Of a stretch of DNA of 64,000 nucleotides, positions 3,789 to 47,866 are shown in pieces (position 1 is the first letter of the stretch; every line of letters begins with the position of its first letter). The translations under genes and the position numbers were made by a program. The DNA comes from Tubulanus polymorphus (lineage: Eukaryota > Nemertea > Palaeonemertea > Tubulaniformes > Tubulanidae), in the NCBI RefSeq assembly GCF_964204645.1, contig NC_134027.1, positions 15,488,485 through 15,552,484 on the forward strand, given 5' to 3'. The notes below the pieces were generated by a model, which searched no databases, was not told the DNA's origin, and worked only from the letters and a program-made list of their open reading frames with translations.

Positions 3789-4463
3789 CTAACCACTGAT
3801 CAAAACCTCAGAATGCGGTTGATTCTGTGAAATACTATTCCATAATTCAACAAATGTCTTTGCTTTATCCAGTTGATCTAAATATAACTGTAAATCTAGT
3901 TTATTGGATTTAATTATGTTTTCCTTCTTTTCTAAAGGTCTTAGATTCTTCCAATTCCATATTAGCTTCTTATTATAATCATCACTCATGTCAAATTTAG
4001 AAATCGGCAACACGTGATCAATATGAAAGTATTCACCATAATTATCTATATTCATTTTATCATCGAATTGAAATATAATCCATGATTTTAAGAATTCATC
4101 TGAACAACCCAATAAATTAGATAGTGTTTCTGAATGTGTTTCTTTGTTGAATAATTGTGTTAATCTAGATCTTAAACATTGTTTTAATCTAAAATTAAGA
4201 TCTGTTTGATATCTTTCTCTCATATATTCTGTCATATAATCATTATAAGCTTCTCTATTATCTTCTCGATATTGTTTGGTATATAGTTTAAAACAAGTTT
4301 TACAGCAATATTGAAAACCATCTTTGCTAATCTTACGCTTATTAAGTTCTGTTAAAGCTAATTTATCTAATTCACATTTAGAACACTTCTTGTAGTATAT
4401 ATTTATAAGTGTTATTTGTAATATTGATAGTTTGTGGTTGTTCTGGTTCCATTTATTATACAT
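3789..4463 (-). CDS. HNH endonuclease with N-terminal zinc knuckle
   Basis: This is an uninterrupted 224-residue ORF. Near residue 28 it has CSKC, and near residue 55 CKTC, a treble-clef-type zinc site. A basic, Y/R-rich helical region follows, then the HNH core: FHIDHVLPISKFD around residue 145 and NWKNLRPLEKKENIIKSNK around residue 170, carrying the expected His-x-Asp-His and Asn residues. The layout matches small HNH nucleases common in giant viruses, phages and mobile elements, which cut or nick DNA; it is not a usual animal housekeeping gene. It shares strand with the unknown protein at 2711-3440. Upstream are AT-rich sequence and a strong foldback at 4714-4902. The source could be a virus-like insertion or a transposon cargo gene. 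Confidence 0.75.
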   Translation of the reverse strand: MYNKWNQNNHKLSILQITLINIYYKKCSKCELDKLALTELNKRKISKDGFQYCCKTCFKLYTKQYREDNREAYNDYMTEYMRERYQTDLNFRLKQCLRSRLTQLFNKETHSETLSNLLGCSDEFLKSWIIFQFDDKMNIDNYGEYFHIDHVLPISKFDMSDDYNKKLIWNWKNLRPLEKKENIIKSNKLDLQLYLDQLDKAKTFVELWNSISQNQPHSEVLISG

Positions 4464-4902: not shown

Positions 4903-5956
4903 AGTATGAATGCCATACTTACAGTTGCAGCAAAGACCCTAGGTTTGCACTCAATTTTGGATATTGTGGTTGATCTACGGTATGAAATCACATCAAATAT
5001 TGACACAATGATGGTCTCGCAAATGGAGCAAGTTGTATTGTAAAAAAACTCATTATTTATCCAATAACCCAATTCCTGCCATTATGTGGGTCAAATTTAA
5101 AGAAGATAAAATTGGTCTCAAGTGGAAATCTAATCATGCTTAACTCTATGGCAGTAATATCAATAAGTCATGGATCCCCATTTTACCTGTGTCTAGACAA
5201 TTTCTAGTTGGCCGAAATTCAACTGCAACTGTCGTTCAGAAACAGTTTCCATTGAGACTATCTGTAGCCAAAACTATCCATAGAACCCAGAGCGAAACTA
5301 TGAATACGATTGTTGTAGACTTTTCTGGAGCAAAGATTGATCATATTCACTATGTTGGACTTAGTAGGTGTAAAGAAACCAGCAGTGCAGTCGCAATGGA
5401 CATGTCCAGGTTACGCAACTCGCAACAATTACAAATAAGCCAAGAATTCTTTTACAAGACAAAAACATATCTTTCACATTTATGTTTCAAAATGTGAGAT
5501 CTTTAATGGTTCATTTCTAAAATATTGTTGCCGATTCGGCATTGACAGAATCATTAGTGGCAGCATTTACTGAAACAAAACTTAAACCTAGAACTAAGGA
5601 AAATTTTGATTTGCATGATTATGCTCTTTTGAGAAACGATTTATCAAGCAGTTTCTGTCATGGAACAGCTATGTTTGTTCACTCCTCACTCTCAGGTAAC
5701 GATTTCAGAATCTTGATTGCACATCAAGTTGAACTCGCATTTATACGTTTGGATAAATATAAGTCATTGTGCTATGGAATTAACATTTTGACCGTTCACC
5801 AAAGGTATCATTTGCTGACCTATTACAATCTCTTGAAGCTGTAAAAAGAATGTTTCTACATGATGTTTCTATTATTGTGTATGGAGATTTTAATACGGAT
5901 GCTGTAAAGGAAAACAATTTCGAATATGAAATTTTGAGAAATTACATGTCTGAACT

Positions 5957-7372
5957 AGGGGTCCAGGGACACCATGCCCACATGGGAAGTGGTTTCAAAT
6001 GCTCAACAATCTAACAATTTCAATACATATTGCCCCCTAGTGACCATATACAAAAACCAATGACCATGAAACCCACCACAATCATAGAACTTGTCAGCAG
6101 CTATGATTTTGTAATTGATTGTGATAACAAAATATGCCTTGTTACCAATTTAATAGGGACATACTAATAGGGACATAAGTTATTCTACTATTCAACGCCC
6201 CCTGGTGACCATATGCAAAACCCAATGACCTAAAAACTCACCACAATCGTAGTTGACATACAACTTTGCAATTGATCATGGTAACAAAATATGCCTAGGT
6301 ACCAATCTAATAAGGAAATACTAAGCTATTCTACTATTCAACGCCCCCTGGTGACTATATGGAATAACTCATGTCCTTAAAAACTTACCACAATCATAGA
6401 CGATGTCATGAACTACAACTTTGCAATTGATCATGGTAATAAAATATGCCTTGGTACCAATCCAATAAGGAAATGCTAAGTTAACTTACTTTTCAACGCC
6501 CCCTGGTGACCATAAAGAATAACTAATGTCCTTAAAACTCACCAATATCATGGAAGATGTCGTGAGCTGCAACTTTGCAATTGACTGTGGTAACAAAATA
6601 TGCATAGGTACAAATATAATATAGAAATACTAAGTTATTGTATTATTCAACGCCCACTGGTGGCCACATACAAAATCAATGACCTTGAAACTCACCAAAA
6701 TCATAGGACACGTTATGGGCTACAGCTTTCCAATTGAATGTAGTAATACAATATGCTTAGGTATGAATTTAATGTAGAAAAACTTTTTCCCACCGACGAA
6801 TGAGTACTGATGACACCAAGATGGCCGCCAATTGTGTCATCATTGGCTGAACAAAAATACCTGTCTCAGGTATAAAACATCCCTTTCCAAAGAATACCCA
6901 TCACAAATTGCAATGAGAAATGGCAAACCTGTAGGAAGCTACAAGACCTAGAATTCTGGCCAAAATTGACATTTTTGGGCACTAAAAAGGTCATAGGACG
7001 GCCATCTTGAGTCAGGTCAACCCAATTTTTCTTATGCTGATGGGCCCTTCGTAGATTCAAATACAAACCAAAGATCAAGGTAATTGATCAAAGCGTCTTC
7101 AAAATTTCCCTCAAAAACTTTGAAAATGTTTAAAAAGTGCTGATTATGGCGAACAACAATGGCTGCCAGTCGGCCATCTTGAATCTGACATGGCCAGTTT
7201 TGGGGCTGAAGATGTGTCTAGGGTAGATACATGTATAAACCAAATAGCAAGACATAACCTTGAAGCGTCTTCAAAACTTCCCAAAATAACTGGAAGCCGT
7301 CTACGGACGGACGACGGACGAAAAGTGAACGCAATAGCCCGCTGGGACTAAAGTCCCAAGTGGGCTAAAAAT
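5957..7372 (+). mobile_element. Hairpin-ended repeat, copy A (longest)
   Basis: The element starts AGGGGTCCAGGGACACC and ends with GGACGGACG runs, a 29-base hairpin (7337-7365; arms GCCC.CTGGGACT and AGTCCCA.GTGGGC around AA) and CTAAAAAT. It sits inside the Helentron endonuclease frame. Deleting exactly 5957-7372 gives GAACT joined to GGTCATGC, which keeps the frame open. No target duplication is visible, and all three copies follow AACT. A 3' hairpin followed by CTAA and no target duplication fit a Helitron-like non-autonomous element, but the 5' end is not canonical. Other copies are at 16947-17503 (minus) and 45616-46704. Confidence 0.75.
6027..6780 (+). repeat. About five tandem 150-base units inside copy A
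   Basis: Units begin near 6028, 6193, 6339, 6494 and 6648, with the landmark CAACGCCCCCTGGTGACCATA, followed by CCAATGACC, ACTCACCA.AATCATAG, CTACAACTTTGCAATTGA and AACAAAATATGC. Spacing is 146-165 bases. Copy C of the element has about two and a half units, and copy B has none. Confidence 0.8.
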
Positions 7373-16946: not shown

Positions 16947-17503
16947 ATTTTTAGCCCACTTGGGACTTTAGTCCCAGCGGGCTATTGCGTTCACTTTTCG
17001 TCCATCGTCCGTCCGTAGACGGAAATCAGTTATTTTAGGAAGTTTTGAAGACGCTTCAATGTAATGTCTTGATATTTGGGTTTCACATGTATCTACCCTA
17101 GACACATCTTCAGCTCAAAAACTGGCCCTGTCAGAATCAAGATGGCCGACTGGCAGCCATTGTTGTTCGCCAAAATCAACACTTTTTACACATTTTTGAA
17201 CTTTTTGAGGGAAATTTTGAAGATGCTTTGATCAATTACCTTGATCTTTCTGATATATGTGAATGCCCCTGGGCCCATCAGCATAACAAAAATTGGGATA
17301 CGGACTCAAGATGGCCGTCCTATGACCTTTTTTAGTGCCCAAAAATGTCAGTTTTGGCCCGAATTCTGAGTTTGCCATTTCTCATTGCAATTTGTGATGG
17401 GTATTCTTTGAAAAGGGATGTTTTATACCTTTGATACCTGAATTGTTAGATTGTTGAGCATTTGGAACCACTTCCCAAGTGGGCATGGTGTCCCTGGACC
17501 CCT
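16947..17503 (-). mobile_element. Hairpin-ended repeat, copy B (no internal units)
   Basis: This is the reverse orientation of the family at 5957-7372: the hairpin end is at 16954-16982 and the AGGGGTCCAGGG end at 17503. The 5' unique part (CAATCTAACAATT) joins directly to the 3' unique part (AGGTATCAAAGGTATAAAAC), with none of the 150-base units. On its own strand it also follows AACT. Confidence 0.75.
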
Positions 17504-18077
17504 AGTTCTAATAACTCAGATCAAGAGTGACTCTCCCATTTATTAGGAAACACACGCAACTAGTGGAATAGGTTTGATTTACACACATGTTGCAGGTATC
17601 AATTGTTTATCACTGTAGAATTTGTAATCCATAAAAGCCAAAATCAACATCAGCCGGAAACCCAGACCAAATAAATTCATAATTTATTGATTGAATCTAC
17701 ACTACAATATATGTATTTATTCAAATATTTCAGTAAAAACATTAACTTCTTAAATCTAATCTATTCTAAATCATAATACGTTCTTATCTGTGAATTCACT
17801 CAATCTATCGGCTCAGCAGGTGCTTAAGATGAGTTCTTAATAGGACAGATCCATTTTTAAGGATGGTGATAATACAGTATCATGATGTTTGAATGCCAAA
17901 ATAAGTGCCTGGTCAAATATATTAATATTTGTGATTGTACGTCCACGTATGTTCGGTTTCAAAGCTGAATTATATTTGACGTTTACACAGTGGTTGCATA
18001 TTAGGTTCGAATCTGTCAATGCATTTTATTCTATGTATCGATTATATTTCAATTCACTACAATTCCCATCATTCTGA
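17504..18077. other. Upstream region of the 352-aa gene
   Basis: No gene is seen. The region is AT-rich. A TGA codon lies directly before the ATG at 18078 in frame, which supports that start. No promoter motif is assigned. Confidence 0.4.
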
Positions 18078-18752: not shown

Positions 18753-19447
18753 GTAATAAAAATTCTGCTGTTACATCATTTGAATCAGCTACATAACGGA
18801 TTACAAAATATTCGGTTCCTGAACTTCGCTGAAAAAGCTGAAACACTGAAAAGCTGAAACGCTGAAATAAAAACGCTGAAATTTCAGGGAATTTCCGAAA
18901 AACGCCGAAATTTCAGGGAATTCCCGAAAAACGCTGAAATCGTGCTAGGTACCGACAATACACGTTTTGAAATGTTTTCCGGGCCGGTGTCCGCTGACGA
19001 GTCCTGAACCGTGTTTTATGCTCTACCTTCGGTTACAGAGACATGCCTTAAGGTCGTCGTTCTGATCGACTTGATCGATTGCGTGGATTGTTAGATGTGG
19101 ATTGTTAGATGTGGATTGTGCGATTGTGCGATTGCGCATGCGCGGACTGGATAACACCTCTCAACCTTCGTGACCGAAAATTTCGCGAAAAATACCTTTA
19201 AAAACGTTATTGGACTAACTATAATTGCACAAAAACCATTCATAAAAGCTTCAGGATACTGGACATGGACTATCCAGCTACTAAGAACTTTGAAGGCTAG
19301 TTTTAATCAAGTTAAATCAACCTGATTACCAACCTGTGGAAAATGTCGAAAACCGGAAGTCGGCCATATTGGACAACTTAAAAACAAAAATATGCCATTC
19401 CCATTCTTCTACACATATATCGACATTATTAGGTGGCAACCTACACA

Positions 19448-22400
19448 ATGGTGGCACACAGGAGTAGTCGTCCTGCTTATGCTGATGATAGCACACGATA
19501 TTCATACAATCCTGGCCCACGTACACAAAAATACCCGTGCGGAGTGTGCACGAAGGCAGTGCAATGGACGCAGAAAGGGATTGCTTGCGACATATGTAAC
19601 CTATGGTTCCACACAAACTGTGTTGGCATGTCTGACCGGCTATATGAACTTGAGACGTCCACCTCATTGTGGACATGTTACATATGCGGTACACCGAACT
19701 TTTCATCTACTCTCTTCACAACTACAGCGGCTGAATCGTTAAATATCAGCCACCCATCACTTCTTGACATATCGAGGACCTCGTCTCTTGACACTGATGG
19801 TAACACCTCGTCGCAGCATTTGGGTACACCAATACATGCCTCGTCACCGATAATGCCTAGAGGAACACAAAATAGACTTGAAACCCAGGATAGCTTTTCA
19901 AACTTGCATAGCCCATCATCGTCATGTGACACCTCTTCGCGAAACCCAGTAGCGGTGAAATGCAACGCGACGACGCGAACACTAGTGATCAACTTTCAGA
20001 GCATCCGCCCAAAAAAAGCCGAACTTTGGAATCTAATCACGTGCACTGATCCTGACATAATCCTCGGTTCTGAAACCTGGTTAAAGCCAGAGATACATAA
20101 CGCCGAAATTTTCCCGGAAGGTTACGACGTCTACCGCAAGGACAGGCATGATGAACATGGCGGCGTCCTTGTGGCGATCAAAAAACTATTAATCTCACAG
20201 GAGATCCAGATAAACACCACATCAGAGGCAGTATTTGTCCGCTTAGAAACCGACTGTAAAAACGAACCAATCATCGTCGGCTCGGTATACCGAACACCCT
20301 CACAATCAAGCGACGAACAGATGGACGCCATCTGTAAAGTCCTAGACGCTACAACCTCTAATTCTAAACCATCCACTTACTGGTGCGGTGGCGATTTCAA
20401 CTTACCAGACATCAACTGGGAAGATACCTGCATCGTCGGAAATCAGTACAAGAAATCTGTAAACGAGCTCTTTCTCGACAAAATTGACAACCTCGGACTG
20501 CAGCAAGTGAATAACCAACCCACCAGAGGTGATTCCATCCTCGAGATTTTCCTATCAAACAAACCAGGTCTAGTGACGCGGTGTGAAGTCCTACCTGGAC
20601 TTAGTGACCACGACATCCTACTCGTTGACAGCCGTATCCGCCCAACGAGAGCACGACCGATACCTCGTACAGTCAGCGTATGGAAAAAAGCCAAATTCGA
20701 CGAAATGAGAACAGACACCGCTAGATTCACACATGACTTCTGCACTCGTCATTCGACCTCAGAAGCACCAATCAATACCAAGTGGATAGAACTGCAAAAT
20801 CACCTACTCAAAATTCAAAAAGATCATGTTCCAACGACGACTACATCGACAAAATTCCACCAACCATGGATAAATCACGAACTCAAAAAGCTTTCCCGTC
20901 GTAAAGCCAGAGCTTGGAAAAAAGCCAAATCCAAATCAAAACGATCAAAACGATCAAAGGAACGATATCGTAGACTAAAACGCGAAACCAGGAAGGCAAA
21001 TCGGTCTGCTTACCACAAGTACATTGCAGAAATGCTCAGCAGTGATAGCAGCTCTAAGCGCATATGGAAATACATAAAAAGCAGAAAAACTGACATGACT
21101 GGTGTCGCTCCTCTTACAAGCGGTGGCATTACCTTCAGTGATAGTTCAACGAAGAGCAACATATTGAATAATCAGTTCTGCTCAGTCTTCACAAAAGAAG
21201 ATACCTCAAACTTTCCATCACTTGGAGAAAGCCCCTACCCACCGATGCCGGATATACAAGTATCCAATCATGGGGTATACTGCCTGTTGAAGAAAATCAA
21301 CCCAAGAAAAGCATGTGGACCAGACAATATTCCAGGTCGTATCCTTCAAGCCGTAGCGCAAGAAATAGCTCCGGCCGTCTGCCTACTGTTCAACGAATCG
21401 TTACGTACCGGTGAAATACCAGAAATTTGGAAACACGCCTTTGTGCAGCCAATCTTTAAAGCAGGTGATAGGAGTCAACCAGTAAACTATCGACCAATCT
21501 CACTTACATCAATATGCTCCAAGTTGCTTGAACACATCATCAGGAGCGAAATAACAAAACACCTTGAGACTCACCAAATTCTCACCGATGGGCAACACGG
21601 TTTCCGTAAAAACCGCTCCTGCGAGACTCAACTGATTCTTACAACCGATGATTTTAGCACAACTATTGACTCTGGTCTACAAACAGATGCCATATTATTG
21701 GACTTCTCGAAGGCATTTGATAAGGTGCCCCATCTGCGCCTCGGTGTAAAGCTCAACTACTATGGCATACGCGGCAGAACATTGACATGGATCGAGAACT
21801 TCCTGTCCAATAGAACTCAACAGGTGCTAGTAGAAAGTAAATACTCTGATATTGGACCTGTGACGTCAGGTGTGCCACAAGGCTCGGTACTTGGACCTAC
21901 ATTGTTTTTGATCTACATCAATGATTTGGGAAATGATACCCAATGCGTAGTACGTCTGTTTGCTGATGACACGATACTGTACGAACAAATTAAAACTCTG
22001 TCAGACACTGAACGCCTCCAAGACGACCTCACCAAACTGGGTGAATGGGAGAAACAATGGCAAATGGGGTTCAATGTCAAGAAATGCCATTCCATCACCA
22101 TTACACAGCGCAAGAAACCAATTGTAGCCACGTACCATCTGCACGGTCAACCCCTAGACCAAGTTGACAAGGCTAAATACCTTGGGCTAGTATTCAACAA
22201 GAACTTAACCTGGGGTGATCACATACAAGCAATAGCAGCAAAAGCCAACAGAGCGAGTGCCTTCGTCTACAGGAACCTGAAAGGCTGCCCAACTCAAGCT
22301 CACATTCAGTGTTACAAGACGCTCACTCGACCCATCGTTGAATATGCCTCTACAGTCTGGAGCCCATACCAAACAAAGCTCATCAACGAACTTGAGATGA

Positions 22401-22768
22401 CTCAACGTCGTGCTGCCAGAAGAATCAATCGTGATTTCAGTCGTTCTTCAAGCGCCACAGAATTAGTCCAACGCCTCGATCTTGAATCTCTTCAGACTCG
22501 CAGAAATGTCAACAAGGCCACGATGATGTACAAAATCATCAACGGACCTATCGACATTAAGGTGGACGACAGCATCATCACACCAGCAAGACGAGGCACA
22601 AGAGTAGCACATAGACTGATGGTACATCATACGAGGACCAACGTGAAGCTTCACTCCTTTTTCCCGTCAACTATCCGTCTATGGAATAGTGTACCAGAAG
22701 AGATATGTGCTGCGTCCTCAGCAGATGCATTCAAAGCTGCGCTCCTCCGGGAGTGGAGCTCCAAATAG
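19448..22768 (+). CDS. LINE polyprotein (PHD finger, endonuclease, reverse transcriptase), intact ORF
   Basis: One uninterrupted frame of 1106 codons starts at ATG 19448 (MVAHRSSRP); the open frame begins slightly earlier. Near residue 30 lies a PHD-type zinc finger (CGVCTKAV, CDICNLWFHTNC, WTCYICG). A Ser/Thr-rich linker leads to an apurinic-type endonuclease (INFQSIRPK, SETWLKP, GGDFNLPDINW, SDHDILLV). The reverse transcriptase follows (ACGPDNIPGRIL, NYRPISLTS, HGFRKNRSC, LDFSKAFDKVPH, GVPQGSVLGPTLF, FADDTILY). This order is that of CR1/L2-group non-LTR elements. The 3' end at about 22902-22911 is a short GAA repeat. All key motifs are present, so it may have been recently active. It lies inside the Mutator-like element. 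Confidence 0.92.
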   Translation: MVAHRSSRPAYADDSTRYSYNPGPRTQKYPCGVCTKAVQWTQKGIACDICNLWFHTNCVGMSDRLYELETSTSLWTCYICGTPNFSSTLFTTTAAESLNISHPSLLDISRTSSLDTDGNTSSQHLGTPIHASSPIMPRGTQNRLETQDSFSNLHSPSSSCDTSSRNPVAVKCNATTRTLVINFQSIRPKKAELWNLITCTDPDIILGSETWLKPEIHNAEIFPEGYDVYRKDRHDEHGGVLVAIKKLLISQEIQINTTSEAVFVRLETDCKNEPIIVGSVYRTPSQSSDEQMDAICKVLDATTSNSKPSTYWCGGDFNLPDINWEDTCIVGNQYKKSVNELFLDKIDNLGLQQVNNQPTRGDSILEIFLSNKPGLVTRCEVLPGLSDHDILLVDSRIRPTRARPIPRTVSVWKKAKFDEMRTDTARFTHDFCTRHSTSEAPINTKWIELQNHLLKIQKDHVPTTTTSTKFHQPWINHELKKLSRRKARAWKKAKSKSKRSKRSKERYRRLKRETRKANRSAYHKYIAEMLSSDSSSKRIWKYIKSRKTDMTGVAPLTSGGITFSDSSTKSNILNNQFCSVFTKEDTSNFPSLGESPYPPMPDIQVSNHGVYCLLKKINPRKACGPDNIPGRILQAVAQEIAPAVCLLFNESLRTGEIPEIWKHAFVQPIFKAGDRSQPVNYRPISLTSICSKLLEHIIRSEITKHLETHQILTDGQHGFRKNRSCETQLILTTDDFSTTIDSGLQTDAILLDFSKAFDKVPHLRLGVKLNYYGIRGRTLTWIENFLSNRTQQVLVESKYSDIGPVTSGVPQGSVLGPTLFLIYINDLGNDTQCVVRLFADDTILYEQIKTLSDTERLQDDLTKLGEWEKQWQMGFNVKKCHSITITQRKKPIVATYHLHGQPLDQVDKAKYLGLVFNKNLTWGDHIQAIAAKANRASAFVYRNLKGCPTQAHIQCYKTLTRPIVEYASTVWSPYQTKLINELEMTQRRAARRINRDFSRSSSATELVQRLDLESLQTRRNVNKATMMYKIINGPIDIKVDDSIITPARRGTRVAHRLMVHHTRTNVKLHSFFPSTIRLWNSVPEEICAASSADAFKAALLREWSSK

Positions 22769-22911
22769 ATGCCTACACAACCTACACCGTTTTAACTGTA
22801 CATATTTGAATTTTAACCTAACTGATATCCAGTCCGAGCATCGCTGTCAAACGCTGTGGGACAATACCCAACTATGGGTCCTCCACATTATTCTAAAGAA
22901 GAAGAAGAAGT

Positions 22912-24658
22912 TTTTTTGCCATAGTTTTATGTGCATATACCGGTACGATCTAACAATGAAGTTATCACTTCATTTGAATAAATTCTTAATCACAGTAATA
23001 TTAATTGACAATATTTTTTCTTATGTTTGGTGATTTCTTGCAACTTATCATTGCCAAGTCTCATACAAGTAGTAGCTGAATGAAAGTACAGTTAGGCTGA
23101 ACCTGATAACCCAAATTAAGTGCTAGCATGGAACTAATGATTATTTTGATTCTATTTTCGGTGTCATTGAAATTCGTTAATAAAGGTTCAACCGTCATAG
23201 TATACTGTACTTAGCATTGCTACAATTGGGTGCCATATTTCTACAATTTCTACAAGGAGGAAGGAATCTTTAAGTGTCTTTGTTCCCGGGTAGGGTACGG
23301 GGTAAAACCTGGTTTACTTTCTCTTTCGACTTGCCGGAGACTACTATCTGCAATGTATTGCATGCTTTGATGTGTCTGGCCTATAGGAGTCGAACGATAT
23401 TTTTTTCCCATACACAGGCTTGGCTTTAGTGTAGATGAAGGCTAGGCACTGCACATTGTGGATTGACTGGAACTCTTAACTCACAAAATTAAACGAGTCA
23501 ACAAGAAAGATCCAATAATTGGACATTTGTCTAACTATATTATTTAACAGCTTGAAATAAAACATAACACATTCTGCAAGAGTATACAAAGGAAATCAGT
23601 TCTTACATTATATCAGAATCAATAGTTCGCTTAACTCTGGCTAGAATTCTGGTTCCATTGCTTCATATTCTAATGAAATCCACTAGTATACCTTAGAATA
23701 TCGCTTAGCTTAAGACTAAAAATTTGGTACCAGGAAACAGGGAAGAAAAGTGGGTGTACTGTACATCCGCAATTGACTTATTTCTCTCTGGTTGAATTAA
23801 GTTATTATTGAAATAGCATTCGAATAGCCATTTTATTTTTAAAAATTGTGTCGTTCAGCTATCCTGCTGCAAATTTCGCAGTTGAAGTTTACTGGTGCCA
23901 TCTGATTTCTCAGTATCTCAAAAAATTTGCACATTCTAAGCCTGAATCTAAAAATAGAAAAAGGTGCTTAGTAAATAAATACTGAAATTAAACTTACAAA
24001 ACACCCAGTACTTGAGATGATGTACTTGACAAGAAGTGTCACCAGCTAAGCAAATCAACTTTGTCTATGACTCCTCCTTTTATAGATTCAGTAGTAGTCT
24101 AAAAATAAGAATCGGTACATTTTTCTAACAGTTGGTATGTCATTTCTTCAAAAAAACTAATTATTATCACGCCACAGCAAATAAATTATTCACAGTTGTT
24201 GAATGGTTAGCCCGATTTAGATTAATTGGTTGACGCTAATCAGTATGACCCATATGTAGGGGCCTACTGCATGCCATTGGCGTCAATCCATTCCATTCCA
24301 TTCCACAGTGAATTAAAAAGAAATTTAGTTAGATCCCTTTTGTCCAAAAGCTGCATCATTTATATAACTAGCTGTCAAATTTAATTTACCTCCTTCAGAG
24401 AATACCATAGTGACATAGTTCGTCGCCCATCAACGTGTTGACAAAAGAAAAGTTGCTCCATGTTTTATACATGAACGTTCAAATAAGATATTTTGCGTCT
24501 TGCAGGGAATATTGAGCATAGTGTTTAAGGTAGCTTGCACGGTTTGTGAATGGGTTTTCCTCATTATGCTGCCTGTATGCATTAAAAATCCGGATTTCAA
24601 GCGAATTAATTTGTCCAACAAGTGGCCCTCTAGAAGTATACTCCACACATACTGTCCA
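22912..24658. other. Non-coding interior of the Mutator-like element
   Basis: No gene or transposase motif is recognised between the LINE tail and the right terminal repeat. A (CCATT)n stretch occurs near 24291. A segment near 23281-23330 (GTTCCCGGGTAGGGTACGGGG) is GC-rich compared with its surroundings. Confidence 0.45.
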
Positions 24659-24927
24659 TGCATGTCTCTGTAACCGAAGGTAGAGACTAAAACACGGTTC
24701 AGGACTCAGCAGCGGACACCGGCCCGGAAAATATTTCAAAACGTGTATTGTCGGTACCTAGCACGATTTCAGCGTTTTTCGGGAATTCCCTGAAATTTCG
24801 GCGTTTTTCGGAAATTCCCTGAAATTTCAGCGTTTTTATTTCAGCGTTTCAGCGTTTCAGTGATTCAGCTTTTTCAGCGAAGTTCAGGAACCGCAAAATA
24901 TTCTAACTAATCCATTTATTTCTTTAG

Positions 24928-31275: not shown

Positions 31276-34200
31276 ATGCCTAAAAAGGTCAGAAGTCGGT
31301 CTCACTCCCGAGCATCAAAGGACACCCACTCTCAAAGAAATAGGCGAGCGCAGGAAAGTCCCCTACAAACATCAGAACATATGTCGTGTTCGTGACTAAC
31401 TGCAGGCACTAAGATTGCACCCCCAACTTACGTTTGGAGATTTGTGATTTCATTAGACTGGGAGTTTCTGACAACTTCGCTGAGGAAACTCTACCACATG
31501 ATATCATACGTCACCACTGTGGTAAACTGTACGATGTTAACTGCGCACACTGTAGTGCATACAGATGGCCTGATGAAAAGCCATCTATATGTTGCAAAAA
31601 TGGTAAAATTGTAGTGCAACAATTACCTGTACCATCTGATATATGTCATCTCTTTGAAAATGATGCAACTTTCTTAAATAATATCCTGGCGTACAATAAT
31701 GCATTAGCCCTGGCCTCAATTGGCTGTACGACGGTAACACCACCAGGTTTCAACCCGACATTTAAGATACAGGGTAAAATGTATCACCAGATTGGGTCTC
31801 TGTTGCCAGAAGAACACGCTATACCAAAATATGCCCAGCTGTTCTTTTATGACACAGACAATGAGGTTCATAACCGTTTGTATCATATGAGAGATTTGAA
31901 TCGTGATGTCCTAAGTAAGCTGCAACAGTACCTTCATGAGGTCAACTCATATGTGCAATCATTCAAATGTGCTCTTGAACTCTCATCAAACACTGATGAA
32001 GATATACGCATTGTTCTTCATGCTGACCAAAAATTGAAACCGTCGTATGAGCACTGTAGATCATATAATTTACCAATGGCATCTGAGGTATCGGCTCTAC
32101 TTTCTGGAGATATATATGAAAGTGCTGATATCGTAATCCAATGTCACGAAGGTAGTATGCGGCGTATCAGTAATCACCACCGGTCGTATGATCCTCTACA
32201 CTATGTCCTATTGCTTCCGTTTGGGACTGATGGTTGGCAGTTAGGTCTCAAGACTACTGAAAACAAAACACTGACAGCACTTGATTACTATTCGTATCGT
32301 CTCCATGTTCGTAAGGATGACTTCAATATACTGATGAGAGGGCGCAGACTATTTCAACAATACGCAATTGATCAGTGGGCTAAAATTGAAATGGCACGAC
32401 TGCATTGGGCCAAAATTCATCAGAAAACCATCAGGGCGGAAAAATACAGCGGCTTGCATGATGCCTTACAGAATGGTGATACTGTGAACCCAGGAAAAAA
32501 AATCATTTTGCCACCAACAATATATGGTTCACCACGATTCTATTCAGAGGCTTTTCAAAATGCAATGACTATTGTCAGGCATATTGGTAAGCCTGATTAC
32601 TTCATAACATTTACCACTTACCCCAAATGGCCTGAAATACAAGAATAATTGTTTCCGGGTGAGCGAGCGCATGATCAACCAGACATCACTGCCAAAGTTT
32701 TTAAGATGAAGTATGATTTTCTCATGGATGACATTCTGAAAAAGCATGTGCTGGGCCGTGTTAAAGCACATACAGCGACCATTGAATGGCAGAAACGTGG
32801 GCTCACACATGCTCACATTCTGCTAAATTATGCATGGTGAAGACAAGCCACGGACTCCTGAAATCATTGACAAGGTTGTGAGTGCTGAAATCCCAGATAT
32901 ATCTGTAAATCCACATCTGCACAAAATAATCACTGGTAACAATATACATGGACCATGTGGTACAATCAATCCTTCAAGTCCTTGCATGGACGGAACTGGT
33001 GTAAATAGGCGATGTACGGAAGATTTTTTCCAAAGATGTTCTCTGATCGGACGGTCGTCCATGATGACAAATACCCTGTCTATAAACGGAGATCACCAGA
33101 GAAAGGCGGTTTCAGCCATAAAATTTGTATTTGTAATGCCGATTTCACTGTAGATAACTCATTTGTGGTTCCTTATTGTCCACTGCTGTCACCTAGGTAC
33201 GATGCTCACATTATGAGAGATTGTATCATATGAGAGATTTGAATCGTGATGTCCTAAGTAAGCTGCAACAGTACCTTCATGAGGTCAACTCATATGTGCA
33301 ATCATTCAAATGTGCTCTTGAACTCTCATCAAACACTGATGAAGATATACGCATTGTTCTTCATGCTGACCAAAAATTGAAACCGTCGTATGAGCACTGT
33401 AGATCATATAATTTACCAATGGCATCTGAGGTATCGGCTCTACTTTCTGGAGATATATATGAAAGTGCTGATATCGTAATCCAATGTCACGAAGGTAGTA
33501 TGCGGCGTATCAGTAATCACCACCGGTCGTATGATCCTCTACACTATGTCCTATTGCTTCCGTTTGGGACTGATGGTTGGCAGTTAGGTCTCAAGACTAC
33601 TGAAAACAAAACACTGACAGCACTTGATTACTATTCGTATCGTCTCCATGTTCGTAAGGATGACTTCAATATACTGATGAGAGGGCGCAGACTATTTCAA
33701 CAATACGCAATTGATCAGTGGGCTAAAATTAAAATGGCACGACTGCATTGGGCCAAAATTCACCAGAAAACCATCAGGGCGGAAAAAGACAGCGGCTTGC
33801 ATGATGCCTTACAGAATGGTGATACTGTGAACCCAGGAAAAAAAATCATTTTGCCACCAACAATATATGGTTCACCACGATTCTATTCAGAGGCTTTTCA
33901 AAATGCAATGACTATTGTCAGGCATATTGGTAAGCCTGATTACTTCATAACATTTACCACTTACCCCAAATGGCCTGAAATACAAGAATAATTGTTTCCG
34001 GGTGAGCGAGCGCATGATCAACCAGACATCACTGCCAAAGTTTTTAAGATGAAGTATGATTTTCTCATGGATGACCTTCTGAAAAAGCATGTGCTGGGCC
34101 GTGTTAAAGCACATACAGCGACCATTGAATGGCAGAAACGTGGGCTCACACATGCTCACATTCTGCTAAATTATGCATGGTGAAGACAAGCCACGGACTC

Positions 34201-36256
34201 CTGAAATCATTGACACGGTTGTGAGTGCTGAAATCCCAGATATATCTGTAAATCCACGTCTGCACAAAATAATCACTGGTAACAATATACATGGACCATG
34301 TGGTACAATCAATCCTTCAAGTCCTTGCATGGACGGAACTGGTGTAAATAGGCGATGTACGGAAGATTTTTTCCAAAGATGTTCTCTGATCGGACGGTCG
34401 TCCATGATGACAAATACCCTGTCTATAAACGGAGATCACCAGAGAAAGGCGGTTTCAGCCATAAAATTTGTATTTGTAATGCCGATTTCACTGTAGATAA
34501 CTCATTTGTGGTTCCTTATTGTCCACTGCTGTCACCTAGGTACGATGCTCACATTAATGTTGAAGTTGTCCATTCGGTACAGGCTGTGAAATACCTACCT
34601 GTACAAGTATATCACAAAACGACAGGACAAAGTGATAGTGTCTCTGGATGATGGGACGTCAGCGCAAGATGAGATATCAACTTACCTAAACGCATGCTAC
34701 ATATCAGCCAGTGAAGCATTCTGGAAAATATATGGCTTTCCATTCACCAGAAATATCCTCCAGATGAGAAATTGCCATGTCACTTACCAAATGACCAAAC
34801 AGTGCTTTTCCAAGCAGATGATGCTGCCAATGTTATTAATCGTGGACCACCCACCACCAAATTGACTGCCTTCTTTCAAATGAATGCAGAGGATGCAACT
34901 GCACGATCAGTTCTCTACCCAGAATTCCCACGATACTTCACATGGAACACGTCTGGTAAGAAATGGCAACGACGGAAACGTGGCACAGTCAATGGCTATG
35001 GTCATACTACATCAGATGTACTAGGACGTATACCCACCATTTCATTTAGTGCCCATCAAACTGAATTGTATTTCTTACGTTTGCTCTTACACCATCGACC
35101 AGGACCCACAAGCTATGAGGATCTCTGTACTATAAATGGTGAACTCTGCCCTACATTCCAAGATGGATGCCTGAAACTTGGCCTCATAACTGATGATGAT
35201 GAAATAAATCGGGCCATGGAAGAAGCTTCTAACCTGAAATTAGGGTCTCAATTAAGAAACTTCTTTGCAACACTCCTCATCTACTGTAGGCCAGCAGATC
35301 CATTACAGTTTTGGAAAAAGTGGAAAACTGAGTTCAGCGGTGATCTAATGCACCAATTTGACGTCCGTGAAGTAACTACTACAGTTGAAAATGAAGTTCT
35401 CCTTCAATTACAAGGCCTCCAACGCGAGGGTCTGGATCTCTCAAGAGATTTTTCACTTCTGTCACCAACATCAAGTTCAGTTAGGACATCGCCTAGAGTT
35501 ATCGTTGAAGAAACATCTTATGATATACCAGCAATGAAGACGGCACTCAGAAAAATTGCCAACATTAAACGCTGAACAGAAATCTATCTACGATGCAGTT
35601 ATGGGATCATTTGAGAATGATGAAGGCAAACTATACTGCATTAATGCAAGTGGTGGAACCCGGAAGACATACTTACTCAATGTTATACTTACAGCAGCTA
35701 GAGGTAATGGTTATGTAGCACTTGGTACTGCACTTTCTGGAATTGCGTCAACCCTCCTAGACAATGGTAGAACCCTGTAAAATACCTATAAACATCAAAG
35801 CTGACTCAACATGCAACATATCTAACACCTCTGCTACCGCTCAGCTGCTTAGACAAACGGAATTGTTGATCATTGATGAGGTATCAATGGGCCATAAACA
35901 TATCTTTGAATGCCTGGATAGATCATTACAAGATATACGTAGTAACTCTTTCCTAATCAGAGGACTTACTATTGTGTTTGCCCGAGATTGGCATCAAATA
36001 TTACCCGTTGTGCGTCATGGATCCCGACCTCAAATTGTTGATGCTTCCCTGAAGCGTTCATATCTATGGAACCATGTTGAAATGTTTCACCTGACTCAAA
36101 ATATGAGGATCCACTCGACAGATGACCAGGATTTTCCAAACTTCCTCATGTCGATAGGCAATGGTACAGCAGAGAAATTTCCAGAAATTGGACCAAATGC
36201 AGTTAAAGTGCCTGATCAGCTTACATTACCATCTTGCAAACTGGAGGACCTCTGTG
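31276..36256 (+). pseudogene. Helitron RepHel, N-terminal through helicase motif II
   Basis: It starts at MPKKVRSRSHSR (31276); a frameshift leads to the long frame at 31434. Helitron_like_N features are a C..C cluster (CGKLYDVNCAHC), PDYFITFTTYPKWPEIQE, and the HUH rolling-circle motif GLTHAHIL, with the SPRYDAHINVEVVHSVQAVKYL region carrying tyrosines. The helicase has Walker A NASGGTRKTYLL (the usual glycine before K is arginine) and Walker B LLIIDEVSM, with motif III around FARDWHQILPV. Stops and frameshifts include TAA at 32646-32648 and a shift just after HAHILL; both are present in both duplicate copies. It is split at 36256 by a CMC transposon and resumes at 43331. It would nick and unwind DNA during rolling-circle transposition; this copy is dead. 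Confidence 0.88.
31878..34556 (+). repeat. Tandem duplication in the Rep gene, two copies of 1336 bp
   Basis: 31878-33213 is repeated at 33221-34556 (offset 1343) with seven filler bases, TGAGAGA, between. I counted six substitutions (for example 32390, 32441-32447, 32732 and 32873 against the second copy), under 0.5 percent. Both copies share the same inactivating stop and frameshift, so the duplication is later than the gene's death. It may instead be an assembly artefact from two haplotypes. Confidence 0.9.
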
Positions 36257-36929
36257 CACGGCTGTACGGCGTTTCGCTTCGATTGTCAATAGCGATTATT
36301 GATCCACGGCGGGGTCACGTGACCATCGCGCGCATGCTCCAAATGCTTAAGTACGCGATCTAACGGTTTTTCCTAGCTCCCTTAGTGTGCTTAAACGAAC
36401 GAGGTTGACTTGATGCAATCCCCTGTAGCAGGTTCTTGAGTATATAGATTAGTTCGTAAGGGTATTAAACGCCATTTACCTGCGACTCTTTTGCCGCCAG
36501 ACCGCTTCAAAGTGGAGAGAAAATTTAACGACTCGGGCGATACAAGTCTTGGGTAAGATACTTTATATATCGAAAATATAGTACGATGGATCGTTTATAA
36601 TTTTCGTCTATGAACTATATGAGCTTTTTAGCTTTCGTTTGATGTATAAAACGTCGGCCTTCCCTATCGATGATGGGAGAACAAGTGGAGCTCAACACGA
36701 CTCGGCCGTGGTAGGCTATGGCTAATTATTTAGGCCACTCGAGATGCGAGCTCGTCGCATTAGGCTATTTACCTGTTTACAATCCAGCACACTTCTTCAC
36801 TTTCCGGATCGACCACAATACCAAAAGGCCTATTCAAACTATTACTAAGTACTGTGGTCACTCATTGGGCCAGTATTATTTTTTCAAATCTAGGCCAGGC
36901 CTCTTATGTCTAATAAGTAGGGTTTTCGG

Positions 36930-40866: not shown

Positions 40867-40896
40867 TCTTGCTTGTGTAACATGATTTACGGCTGT

Positions 40897-41815
40897 CTAT
40901 CTGTCTGTTTGTCTGACAGTAGAGAAGTGGATGGGAAATGGGCAACTCTATGGTTTTTAAACCATAGAGTTATGTTCGGGTTTAATCCCTCCCGCTCGCT
41001 CTACTGTCAGCCGATTAAATATTAATGTATTCTGTTTGTCTATGTCTGTCTGTCCATCTGTCTGTTTGTCTGACAGTAGAGAAGTGGATGGGAAATGGGC
41101 AACTCTATGGTTTTTAAACCATAGAGTTATGTTCGGGTTTAATCCCTCCCGCTCGCTCTACTGTCAGCCGATTAAATATTAATGTATTCTGTTTGTCTAT
41201 GTCTGTCTGTCTGTCTATCTGTCTGTTTGTCTGACAGTAGAGAAGTGGATGGGAAATGGGCAACTCTATGGTTTTTAAACCATAGAGTTATGTTCGGGTT
41301 TAATCCCTCCCGCTCGCTCTACTGTCAGCCGATTAAATATTAATGTATTCTGTTTGTCTATGTCTGTCTGTCAGTCTATCTGTCTGTTTGTCTGACAGTA
41401 GAGAAGTGGATGGGAAATGGGCAACTCTATGGTTTTTAAACCATAGAGTTATGTTCGGGTTTAATCCCTCCCGCTCGCTCTACTGTCAGCCGATTAAATA
41501 TTAATGTATTCTGTCTGTCTATGTCTGTCTGTCAGTCTATCTGTCTGTTTGTCTGACAGTAGAGAAGTGGATGGGAAATGGGCAACTCTATGGTTTTTAA
41601 ACCGTAGAGTTATGTTCGGGTTTAATCCCTCCCGCTCGCTCTACTGTCAGCCGATTAAATATTAATGTATTCTGTTTGTCTATGTCTGTCTGTCAGTCTA
41701 TCTGTCTGTTTGTCTGACAGTAGAGAAGTGGATGGGAAATGGGCAACTCTATGGTTTTTAAACCGTAGAGTTATGTTCGGGTTTAATCCCTCCCGCTCGC
41801 TCTACTGTCAGCGGC
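40897..41815 (+). repeat. Six-copy 157-161 bp minisatellite of nested hairpins
   Basis: Units recur at 40914, 41071, 41232, 41393, 41554 and 41715 (position of TGACAGTAGAG). Each unit has outer arms CTGACAGTAGAG/CTCTACTGTCAG and an inner palindrome AACTCTATGGTTT-TTAAACCATAGAGTT, plus a GTCTGTCTGTC tract between units. The last two units carry the same A to G change in the inner palindrome. It follows the transposase stop by about 50 bases, and an AATAAA signal lies at 41828, so the array would be in the 3' UTR. Confidence 0.9.
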
Positions 41816-45267: not shown

Positions 45268-47866
45268 CATCAGCAAAGGAGCAAGGTTTGGCAGCGATGG
45301 CTGCAGTACAATGATCGGGTGCCCAACGGTGCGGCTACACAGCTTAAACTGGTATGTAAAACATCTTTGAAGAATATACAATGTAATATTTTTTTGTCAT
45401 TGTATTACGCGATTGTACAAATGTATAAATAATGTATCTATCTTTTTCTTCAGATTGAAAATACGATAGTTAGCAGCCATTGTATTGCTCACCGTCTTGC
45501 TCTCGCAATTGCTCAAGTAGAGAAGGAAATCAATTACATTAAACGCTTTAACACAACCCTCCAAAATATTTATGAACTTCATGATAATTCGACGGTTAGA
45601 ATGGGAACATTAACTAGGGGTCCAGTGACACCATGTCCACTGTGGGCAGTGGTTTCAAATGCCCAATAATCTAACAATTTCAATATTCAATGCCTCCTGG
45701 TGGCCATATACAAAAACCAATGACCTTGAAACTCACCACAATCATAGAACATGTCATGAACTACAACTTTGCAATATATCATGGTAGCAAAATATGCCTA
45801 GGTACCGATATAATAGGGTTAAACTAAGTTATTCTACTTTTCAAAGCCCCCCTGGTGACCATATAGAATAGCTTATGTCCTTAAAACTCACTACAATCAT
45901 AGACGATGTCATGAGCTACAACTTTGCAATTTATTGTGGTAACAAAATATTCATAGGTATAAATATAAAATAGAAGTTATTGTATTATTCAACCAATGAC
46001 CTTGAAACTCACCAAAATCATAATACATCTTCATTTGAGCTACAACCTTCCAATAGATTGTTGTAACAAAATATGCTTAGATATCATTCTAAAGTCGAAA
46101 AACTTTTTCCCACCTATGGATGAGTACTGATGGCACCAAGATGGCCAACAATTGTGTCATAATTGGCTGATCAAAAGTACCAGTCTCAGGTATAAAACAT
46201 CCCTTTTCAAAGAATACCCATCACAAATTGCAATGGAAAATAGCAAACCAGTAGGAAGCTAAAGGACTCAGAATTAGGATCAAAATTGACATTTTTGGGC
46301 GCTAAGGTCATAAGACGGCAATCTTGAGTCCAATCCACCCAATTTTTCTTAAGCTGATGGGCCCTTAGGGGATTCAAATATACCAAACATCAAGGTAATT
46401 GATCAAAGCATCTTCAAAATTTCCATCAAAAAGTTCAAAAATGTGTAAAAAGTGCTGATTTTGGCGAACAACAACGGCTGCCAGTCGGTCATCTTGATTC
46501 TGACAGGGCCAGTTTTTGGGCTGAAAATGTGTCTAGGGTAGACACATGAGTAAGTCAAATATCAGGACATTACATTGAAGCATCTTCAAAACTTCCCAAA
46601 ATAAGTGGATTCCGTCTACGGACGGACGGACGGACGGACGAACAGATGGACGAAAAGTGAACGCAATGGCCCGCTGGGACTAAAGTCCCAAGCGGGCTAA
46701 AAATGATTCAGGTAGTGTTCCTCAAGATATAGGACAGTAATTGTACGTCAGATGTTAAAATTCCATTACCAGCGCAAGGGTAATATGATTAAATGTGTTT
46801 AAAAAAAATCCTCGTTTTAGGAATCTCTTGAACAGCCAGGATTATGGCAAAAAAGCAAGAACAACTTGTTGGTTGTCACATGATCAGGCATTTTCAGACT
46901 TGGCAAGGACTCTGCAGAGTGTGATCGCTAGTGGAAATTTGTGGCAACCAACAAATGAATGATATATCGCCACAATTGGCAATTCTTTCGATTTGTTTCC
47001 AGGTATTAGAGGAATATATAAATATAGTATCTGTTCATTATTATCATCATATACCTCTCCCTAGGGAGAGATGACTGATACATGGAACAGAGTTATAGGC
47101 TGGGGGTAATAATACCAAGTTTGGAGCGCATTTGAACACTCTAGTTTGGATACGTGCGCTATATAAATGTCAATTATTATAGTGTAATATTCTGCTCTGT
47201 TTCAGAAATCCTCTATCGATTTCGATTTGATACAGAGCGCAGTAACCAATAGGATCGCAGTTTTAGAAAGCCACATAATCGTCCCTGGCAGTTTCTTCAA
47301 ACAGATTTTGGATGGTTCTGTGTTAAATGAGCTCAATGAGAAATATCATCTTAAAGTGCCATTTAATGACAATGACCTACAAGATTTCAAATCCAATGTA
47401 AGCTCATAATTGAAATATATTTTAACCAAGGAGCATGAGCATAGCCATACTGCTGAATCAATGCCAATTTCCAGGTACGTGACAAATTCATCTCATTGGT
47501 GATAGAAAATATTCGCAGCAGATTTCCGGACACTGGAATTGTGGGAGCATTTAGGATGTTCGATCCTAAAAGTTTCCCTGATGCCATTGAAACCATGGAT
47601 TAACATAAAGACAATAATCTTGAGGTATTTTTTGAATTTTTTGATGTTGTTAACACTTGAATACAGTATCACAAATGAATCGGCTGGGTTTTTTTCAGAC
47701 ACTGTTAGACCACTACGCTGCGAGACTAGGTATTAACACAGATGCAGCAAGGGGTGAATGGATATCGCTGTGCCCTTTATTAAAAGGCGAAAGTAGTCTG
47801 AAGACAGCTATCTCGACCGTAATCTGTAAAATGAAAGATCTATATCCTAAGTTAAAGGGTAACTGA
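45268..47866 (+). pseudogene. hAT-like (ZNF862-type) protein, spliced and broken
   Basis: Exons are: about 45268-45351 (RFGSDGCSTMIG, then PNGAATQLKL after a one-base shift); 45454-45615 (SSHCIAHRLALAIAQ, the hallmark of this group); a few codons at 46705-46711; 46821 to about 46960 (TTCWLSHDQAFSDLARTLQSVIASG, with a shift); 47206-47397 (AVLESHIIVPGSFF); 47475-47624 (DKFISLVIENIRSRF, GAFRMFDPKSFP); and 47699-47866 (TLLDHYAARLG). Borders are GT..AG and phases agree where checked. A stop lies at 47601-47603, and the repeat at 45616-46704 sits in an exon. The N-terminal zinc finger and the usual hAT dimerisation motif are not seen. It derives from a transposase or from a domesticated relative. 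Confidence 0.72.
45616..46704 (+). mobile_element. Hairpin-ended repeat, copy C
   Basis: It begins AGGGGTCCAGTGACACC, has about two and a half internal 150-base units (landmarks near 45689 and 45841, a deleted one near 45990), then GGACGGACGGACGGACG and the 29-base hairpin at 46669-46697, and ends CTAAAAAT. It is inserted in an exon of the hAT-like gene, after AACT as in copies A and B. Confidence 0.78.

Follow-up and report, generated by a model that had tools for sequence, protein, structure and literature searches.

Background

The published plan of non-autonomous Helentron derivatives (HINEs) runs from a 5' subterminal inverted repeat (subTIR) through a complementary inverted repeat (IR), a microsatellite (often GTCC) and central repeats to a 3' subTIR and a 3' palindrome (PMC7492417; PMC4067079). 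In the Pacific oyster, HINEs with satellite-like arrays are described as abundant, and that study could link no autonomous Helentron to them (PMC7492417). The RGS signature is given as diagnostic of the Helentron Rep protein (PMC4067079).

Three copies (A, B and C) of a repeat family lie in the window analysed here, a stretch of 64,000 nucleotides (C3:15488485-15552484) in the 268-Mb, 77-contig genome of Tubulanus polymorphus. They are very probably cut-down, non-autonomous Helentrons (HINEs) with a short satellite-like central array, inserted as 5'-TT...CTAG-3' elements in oligo-T. The family is new and its kind is known. Cg_HINE of the Pacific oyster, by its published description, has the same arrangement of 5' subTIR with complementary IR and GTCC-type microsatellite, a 3' subTIR with a palindrome (a short candidate one here), an oligo-T target, no duplication and a frequent location inside other repeats; its units measure 140-180 bp in arrays of mostly up to 5, compared with about 154 bp and 0-5 units here (PMC7492417). 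Unlike the oyster case, an element with both ends and with Rep, helicase and endonuclease was found here (PMC7492417). HINE-Mo and DINE-1 are likewise presented as Helentron derivatives with subTIRs, a 3' palindrome, TT or oligo-T targets and sometimes tandem repeats; the present family differs from those descriptions in a target of at least five T with a constant two-base gain at 8 loci, and in a large hairpin formed by the 5' subTIR with its IR (PMC4067079). Proto-Helentron-Pi of Phytophthora has the 5'-TT and 3'-CTAG ends that are inferred here, but it integrates between A and T and contains other genes (PMC4067079). Pearl elements of bivalves, as portrayed in PMC7492417, are also non-autonomous and have a centre of at most six repeats, each about 160 bp long, a likeness by description.

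Copies, ends and family size

The initial annotation had recognized three copies with both ends in common and about 5, 0 and 2.5 internal units in A, B and C. Both points were confirmed, with a unit of about 154 bp and with limits that lie a few bases off the earlier coordinates (Table 1). When genomic copies were collected and their ends aligned, 1,944 left ends (996 + 948, at most one mismatch) and 1,404 right ends (727 + 677, at most two mismatches) were counted genome-wide, and reversed control patterns of both ends gave 0 places, which puts the family far above chance. Twenty copies on contig C1, taken from the first 100 end places listed per pattern and having exact ends at suitable spacing, were fetched and compared together with A, B and C (n = 23). 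The consensus of these 23 copies is 1,270 bp long with four 154-bp units. Divergence from it is 2.1-4.1% in 17 of the 23, and 6.1% in L009, 6.4% in B, 6.9% in L011, 7.7% in A, 9.4% in C and 19% in L019, whose units align poorly with the consensus. The window copies contain no open reading frame (ORF) of 150 aa.

The 29-nt hairpin is present in all three window copies, with one base changed in C. It had been annotated as part of a terminus closing with CTAAAAAT; the hairpin stands, and the terminus is shorter by one base. The right end as read is CTAAAAA and is followed by T (10 of the 23 copies), A (6), C (5) or G (2). Since the flanks vary just outside AAC and CTAAAAA, the final T of CTAAAAAT lies outside the element. 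At the other end all copies had been said to follow AACT. AAC precedes TAGGGG in 23/23 copies, 20 of which were picked with a pattern containing AACT, and, when this filter was dropped, in 15 of 18 additional left ends, although 14 of these 18 have one common flank and are probably one insertion multiplied; the AA belongs to the A-run of the target, as judged from the empty sites.

An exact 12-nt subTIR, GCCCACTTGGGA, occurs at both ends of the consensus, within the 11-15 bp usual for subterminal inverted repeats of HINEs; shuffled 80-nt ends had a common 12-mer in 2 of 20,000 trials. The 5' subTIR is exact in 22/23 copies (one change in C), 20 of them having been picked by patterns that cover it, and the 3' subTIR is exact in 18/23. 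The 5' 45 nt fold at -21.1 kcal/mol (RNA parameters) with a GTCC run next to them, so the HINE arrangement of 5' subTIR, nearby complementary IR and microsatellite is present. The sequence GTCC-CT-GGAC before CTAG, noted by eye, has just 4 perfect pairs and was not picked by the computed fold. A hairpin scan of viral contigs gave no match.

Table 1 Positions in the window of the HINE copies, their parts and the CTCF-like motifs
Feature	Position	Strand	Remarks
Copy A, HINE	5955..7368	-	Helentron sense, 5' end at 7368; limits from empty-site rule; outermost common bases incl. A-runs 5953-7371 (+ as read)
Copy B, HINE without array	16951..17505	+	Helentron sense, 5' end at 16951; outermost common bases incl. 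A-runs 16948-17507 (- as read)
Copy C, HINE, ~2.5 units	45614..46700	-	Helentron sense; limits from empty-site rule; outermost common bases incl. A-runs 45612-46703 (+ as read)
29-nt hairpin, copy A (5' subTIR + complementary IR)	7337..7365	-	
5' subTIR, copy A	7354..7365	-	GCCCACTTGGGA in Helentron sense
3' subTIR, copy A	5976..5987	-	one mismatch; GCCCACATGGGA as read on +
Candidate short 3' palindrome GTCC-CT-GGAC before CTAG, copy A	5961..5970	-	Helentron sense; by eye
GGAC/GTCC microsatellite adjoining hairpin, copy A	7304..7320	.	by eye
Array of ~154-bp units, copy A	6028..6763	.	
CTCF-like motif, copy A unit 1	6028..6046	-	p 3e-7
CTCF-like motif, copy A unit 2	6193..6211	-	p 1e-7
CTCF-like motif, copy A unit 3	6339..6357	-	p 5e-7
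CTCF-like motif, copy A unit 4	6494..6512	-	p 1e-7
CTCF-like motif, copy A unit 5	6648..6666	-	p 4e-7
CTCF-like motif, array of copy C	45688..45706	-	sole one there at p < 1e-5; p 1e-7

A coding relative with both ends

The genome was searched with PF14214, which gave 58 matches, and the surroundings of about 32 of them were viewed, 18 on the 3' side alone. Among these surroundings C2:17230919 alone had a correctly oriented HINE 3' end; both ends emerged once its 5' side was read. The element so delimited (C2:17225543-17236924, 11,382 bp) has the two HINE ends in one orientation and contains, in order, the HINE 5' end and module with array, Helitron_like_N, PIF1, Exo_endo_phos, about 1.3 units and the HINE 3' end. 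Its Rep motif, FYRIEMQQRGSAHIH, is the Helentron form, RGS with FYR before, as against RGL in the canonical Helitron of the window, so that the Rep, PIF1 helicase and AP endonuclease of a Helentron, with the RGS signature, are found between HINE ends. Its identity to the HINE consensus is 88% along 1,115 bp, and its frames are broken or split by introns. The autonomous partner with the same hairpin that had been anticipated is probably represented by this element or by a close relative of it.

When the C2 flanks were joined over TTTTT, 80 of 85 matches spanned the joint (69-77% identity), many of the 85 being neighbouring units of one array. In the two relatives that were read (L116 and L117) the length is kept within 2 bases, with TCCTC and TCCAC where C2 has TTTTT. 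The C2 element has a tandem repeat for its target, with a period of about 145 bp, and in such a repeat two ends could be in phase by chance about 1 in 145 times. Further coding Helentron copies on C1 and C5 have the HINE 5' module in common with the C2 copy, with similarity starting from HINE base 1. They depart from the C2 sequence at the same point and have about 2.1 kb of a different 3' region in common, and the HINE 3' end was not found at them in 17.7 and 15.5 kb; thus either the C2 copy or the C1 and C5 copies have been rearranged at the 3' side.

The C2 locus could also be a product of chance nesting, in which a Helentron of another family came to lie between HINE pieces and is not the partner. 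The missing HINE 3' end at the C1 and C5 copies and the roughly 1.3 units in the C2 3' piece point that way, and HINE pieces do occur downstream of other Rep genes (a whole diverged HINE at L038 and 5' pieces at L074 and L085, all in the same orientation, and a piece at L086 in the opposite one). Such nesting is nevertheless unlikely, because three copies have the HINE 5' module and coding DNA in common at 93-97% with the same start, the C2 element carries a 5' end and a 3' end, one of each and oriented alike, and its flanks are contiguous elsewhere. The C2 element is thus the likely partner (autonomous type) or a close relative of it; with an identity of 88% to the HINE consensus, it may instead be a sister of the true partner.

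Several other candidates and loci were viewed. At the coding Helentrons at C1:12797400 and C5:12975400 the common 3' region, unlike that of C2, may reflect a change of 3' end; 'GACTTTT' as their 3' end is unproven, and the C1 3' flank has its matches at the C5 copy some 14 kb farther along. Canonical Helitrons (window 31434-36363, L002-L006 and L032) were rejected as partners, HINE ends being absent within the stretches read. The one in the window is broken, and its Rep region is present as a tandem pair (32286 and 33629, a distance of about 1.34 kb). Also rejected was L027, which is a Helentron carrying an endonuclease and shows no HINE ends in 18.5 kb. The L027-type Helentron lies in two nearly identical long stretches, C8:2669300-2687799 and C8:4222199-4248103, with an extra piece of 573 bp in the first and of 8.4 kb in the second; these are either a recent segmental duplication or an assembly duplicate. 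Similarity between the two continues through both flanks read, and L027's own ends were not seen from them. On the reverse complement of L093 (2399-3902), two HINEs stand head to tail, the 3' end of one running through ...CTAGTTCTCTTTAGCCC... into the 5' end of the other, an arrangement that tandem copying by rolling circle could produce.

Empty sites and the target rule

Empty sites were searched with joined flanks as query, and 40 candidates were scored per search. All 42 listed matches for copy B span the joint. With the 20 C1 copies in one query, 40 of the 41 listed matches span it, at 7 copies (L009, L012, L013, L014, L015, L016 and L026, among the matches listed). The flanks of A and C are unique, all hits (4/4) being their own loci. 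Twenty-seven empty sites were read, 10 for B and 17 for the seven C1 copies, which makes 8 loci. Twenty-six of them are uninterrupted A-runs of 5-7, and the total number of A at the filled site is in each case exactly two higher (8/8 loci); the exception, L062 beside copy L015, has one changed base. The insertion is thus precise and its boundary constant in 26/27 sites read. The strict run at the filled sites is partly built in, 20 copies having been picked by exact ends, and the run lengths of the empty sites are independent of this.

The simplest reading, in the Helentron sense, is that a 5'-TT...CTAG-3' element enters TTT^TT without duplication. Because the targets are A-runs, a 2-bp AA/TT duplication is indistinguishable from an element-borne TT. 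The T-rich or TT target of HINEs is accordingly seen at 8 loci, in runs of at least 5, with an AA duplication formally compatible. As for the original statement that target duplications are lacking, none is demonstrable at the 8 loci, and the constant gain of two A would also fit a duplication of 2 bp.

Orientation and class

The initial annotation took the hairpin for a 3' terminator and read a Helitron-like rule with an unusual 5' end. Its assignment to a rolling-circle family holds, and its orientation is reversed: the 29-nt hairpin is the 5' end, because Rep, helicase and endonuclease come after the hairpin end while the CTAG end closes the coding relative, and because the reversed element follows the published HINE plan. 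Its order is TTTTTA-GCCCACTTGGGA (subTIR)-IR-GTCC repeats-module-array-TCCCAAGTGGGC (subTIR)-GTCCCTGGAC-CTAG. The 3' end in this sense is the complement of AACTAGGGG with CTAG as final bases, and the unusual 5' end is therefore a Helentron 3' end read backwards.

The class is Helentron/HINE and not canonical Helitron, as the inferred 5'-TT and T^T insertion differ from 5'-TC and A^T. A non-autonomous element of the canonical Helitron kind, with the hairpin as 3' terminator, would resemble the family in its strong hairpin near one end and its want of a clear target duplication. It is very unlikely, however, since the coding relative runs the opposite way, the element as read has neither 5'-TC nor 3'-CTRR after the hairpin, the target lies inside A/T runs and not between A and T, and the far end reads CTAG in the Helentron sense. 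This CTAG does fit CTRR, yet canonical Helitrons have a palindrome of 16-20 nt about 11 nt inside their 3' end, and here the large palindrome stands at the opposite one. A MITE-like element moved by a cut-and-paste transposase is likewise very improbable: its 2-bp AA/TT duplication would fit the constant two additional A, but the ends are asymmetrical with inverted repeats that are subterminal and none terminal, a possible AA is the only candidate for a fixed target duplication, and the coding relative carries Rep and PIF1.

Insertion context and neighbouring features

Two copies had been placed inside coding exons of other transposons, with an endonuclease frame restored by removal of A. Copy A does lie between two stretches in matching phase. 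On its left, Pfam gave hSac2 (E 0.068) and Exo_endo_phos_2 (E 0.17), both short of the cut-off, and on its right no match. The left flank of copy C had no Pfam match. The claim therefore keeps a compatible phase with weak Pfam support for A and is unsupported for C. The repeat that hosts copy B lacks a long frame and is present in many copies that are empty. On contig C7, a HINE was probably multiplied inside a larger repeat (left ends at 11241431, 11248884 and 11256338, 7.45 kb apart).

Elsewhere in the window, a 234-nt inverted repeat (18813-19046 and 24660-24893, 97% complementary) encloses about 5.6 kb. Within this lies a 1,111-aa ORF (19433-22768) that resembles, on visual inspection, a PHD finger plus endonuclease and reverse transcriptase; a LINE-type ORF between long inverted repeats (18813-24893) is odd. 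A 161-bp tandem array at 40895-41812 (5.7 copies, 98% alike, with TCTG/TGTC tracts) showed no match to the HINE. An ORF of 224 aa at 3789-4463 (-) has, by eye, a zinc-binding and HNH-like look.

A CTCF-like motif in the array units

The array units contain CGCCCCCTGGTGGCCA, which we take to be the complement of the vertebrate CTCF consensus. Scoring used a vertebrate CTCF matrix. One of the consensus units has p 2.1e-9 against this matrix, and the other three have 1.4e-7. At p < 1e-5, 70 sites were found in the 20 C1 copies, with at least one in each and four in 13/20, and the counts in the window copies were 5 in A, 1 in C (~2.5 units) and 0 in B, which has no array. At p < 1e-6 the window has 6 sites in all, 5 of them in copy A and 1 in copy C; none of five first-order random versions of the window had a site.

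In 50 other loci (237,425 bases), several of which were fetched because they hold arrays or array relatives, 28 CTCF-like sites were found, 22 in HINE/Helentron arrays (L070 1, L087 3, L088 2, L089 3, L093 3, L116 4, L117 6) and 6 elsewhere (L030 1, L037 3, L068 1, L069 1). The arrays of L038 and L086 had no CTCF-like site at p < 1e-6. In the coding Helentrons L070, L087, L088 and L089, 6 of 9 sites match the stricter TGGCCACCAGGGGGCG. Across the four consensus units, 23/24 columns of the CTCF-like block are invariant as against 79/113 (Fisher p 0.008, for a block chosen on these same units); in a comparison open to every window, it is not significantly the best conserved (permutation p 0.12). 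The block is thus a candidate site that combines a strong sequence match with a weak conservation signal.

A second HINE-like family has a hairpin ending GGAGCTAAAAA and units of 145-146 bp (L116, about 1785-1821, and L117). In it the CTCF-like sites are about as numerous as the units (L117 has 6 in 5.3 units; best p 3e-9). The 145-146-bp and 154-bp units align over their whole length with a score of 60, which falls to 45 when the CTCF core is masked (mean 18 and maximum 48 over 300 shuffles); they are therefore old relatives and not independent inventions. A protein search with human CTCF zinc fingers gave one stand-out place, C3:3430376-3431720, with 62% and 52% identity over successive parts, and the next match by E-value is 33% identical. 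Judged by this similarity, the genome very likely encodes a CTCF-like protein there.

Proposed mechanism and implications

By analogy, we infer that the family moves by rolling-circle transposition. The proposed element, read in the Helentron sense, would begin with 5'-TTAG in the target TTT^TT and continue with the subTIR GCCCACTTGGGA and its IR (hairpin), the GTCC microsatellite, a module of about 500 bp, 0-5 units of 154 bp, the subTIR TCCCAAGTGGGC, the short palindrome GTCCCTGGAC and CTAG-3'. Rep/helicase/AP endonuclease from a Helentron with the same ends would act in trans and nick the HINE 5' end, one strand would be copied by rolling circle up to the CTAG end, and the copied strand would enter oligo-T with the target not duplicated. 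Unit number would presumably change by recombination or slippage.

We tentatively consider it possible, though on balance doubtful, that the array is a cargo of CTCF sites. The HINE and the distant second family would then have spread CTCF-like sites head to tail in one orientation, about 146-154 bp apart and several thousand in number by extrapolation, to be bound by the host CTCF-like protein; they might serve as mobile insulator or loop-anchor blocks, or open chromatin in a way that helps the element. In the open literature, as far as titles and the beginnings of abstracts go, nothing was found on CTCF sites in Helentrons, and the CTCF-like cargo is the part that could be new.

A single genome thus supplies a coding Helentron complete with the two ends, shows which way it runs and gives a sharply defined target rule (at least five T, two bases gained). 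If the cargo reading is true, retention of the motif would explain why one block is kept while the rest of the unit diverges. With a CTCF-like motif in most units, it can be tested concretely whether chromatin-architecture sites of invertebrates were seeded by rolling-circle transposons.
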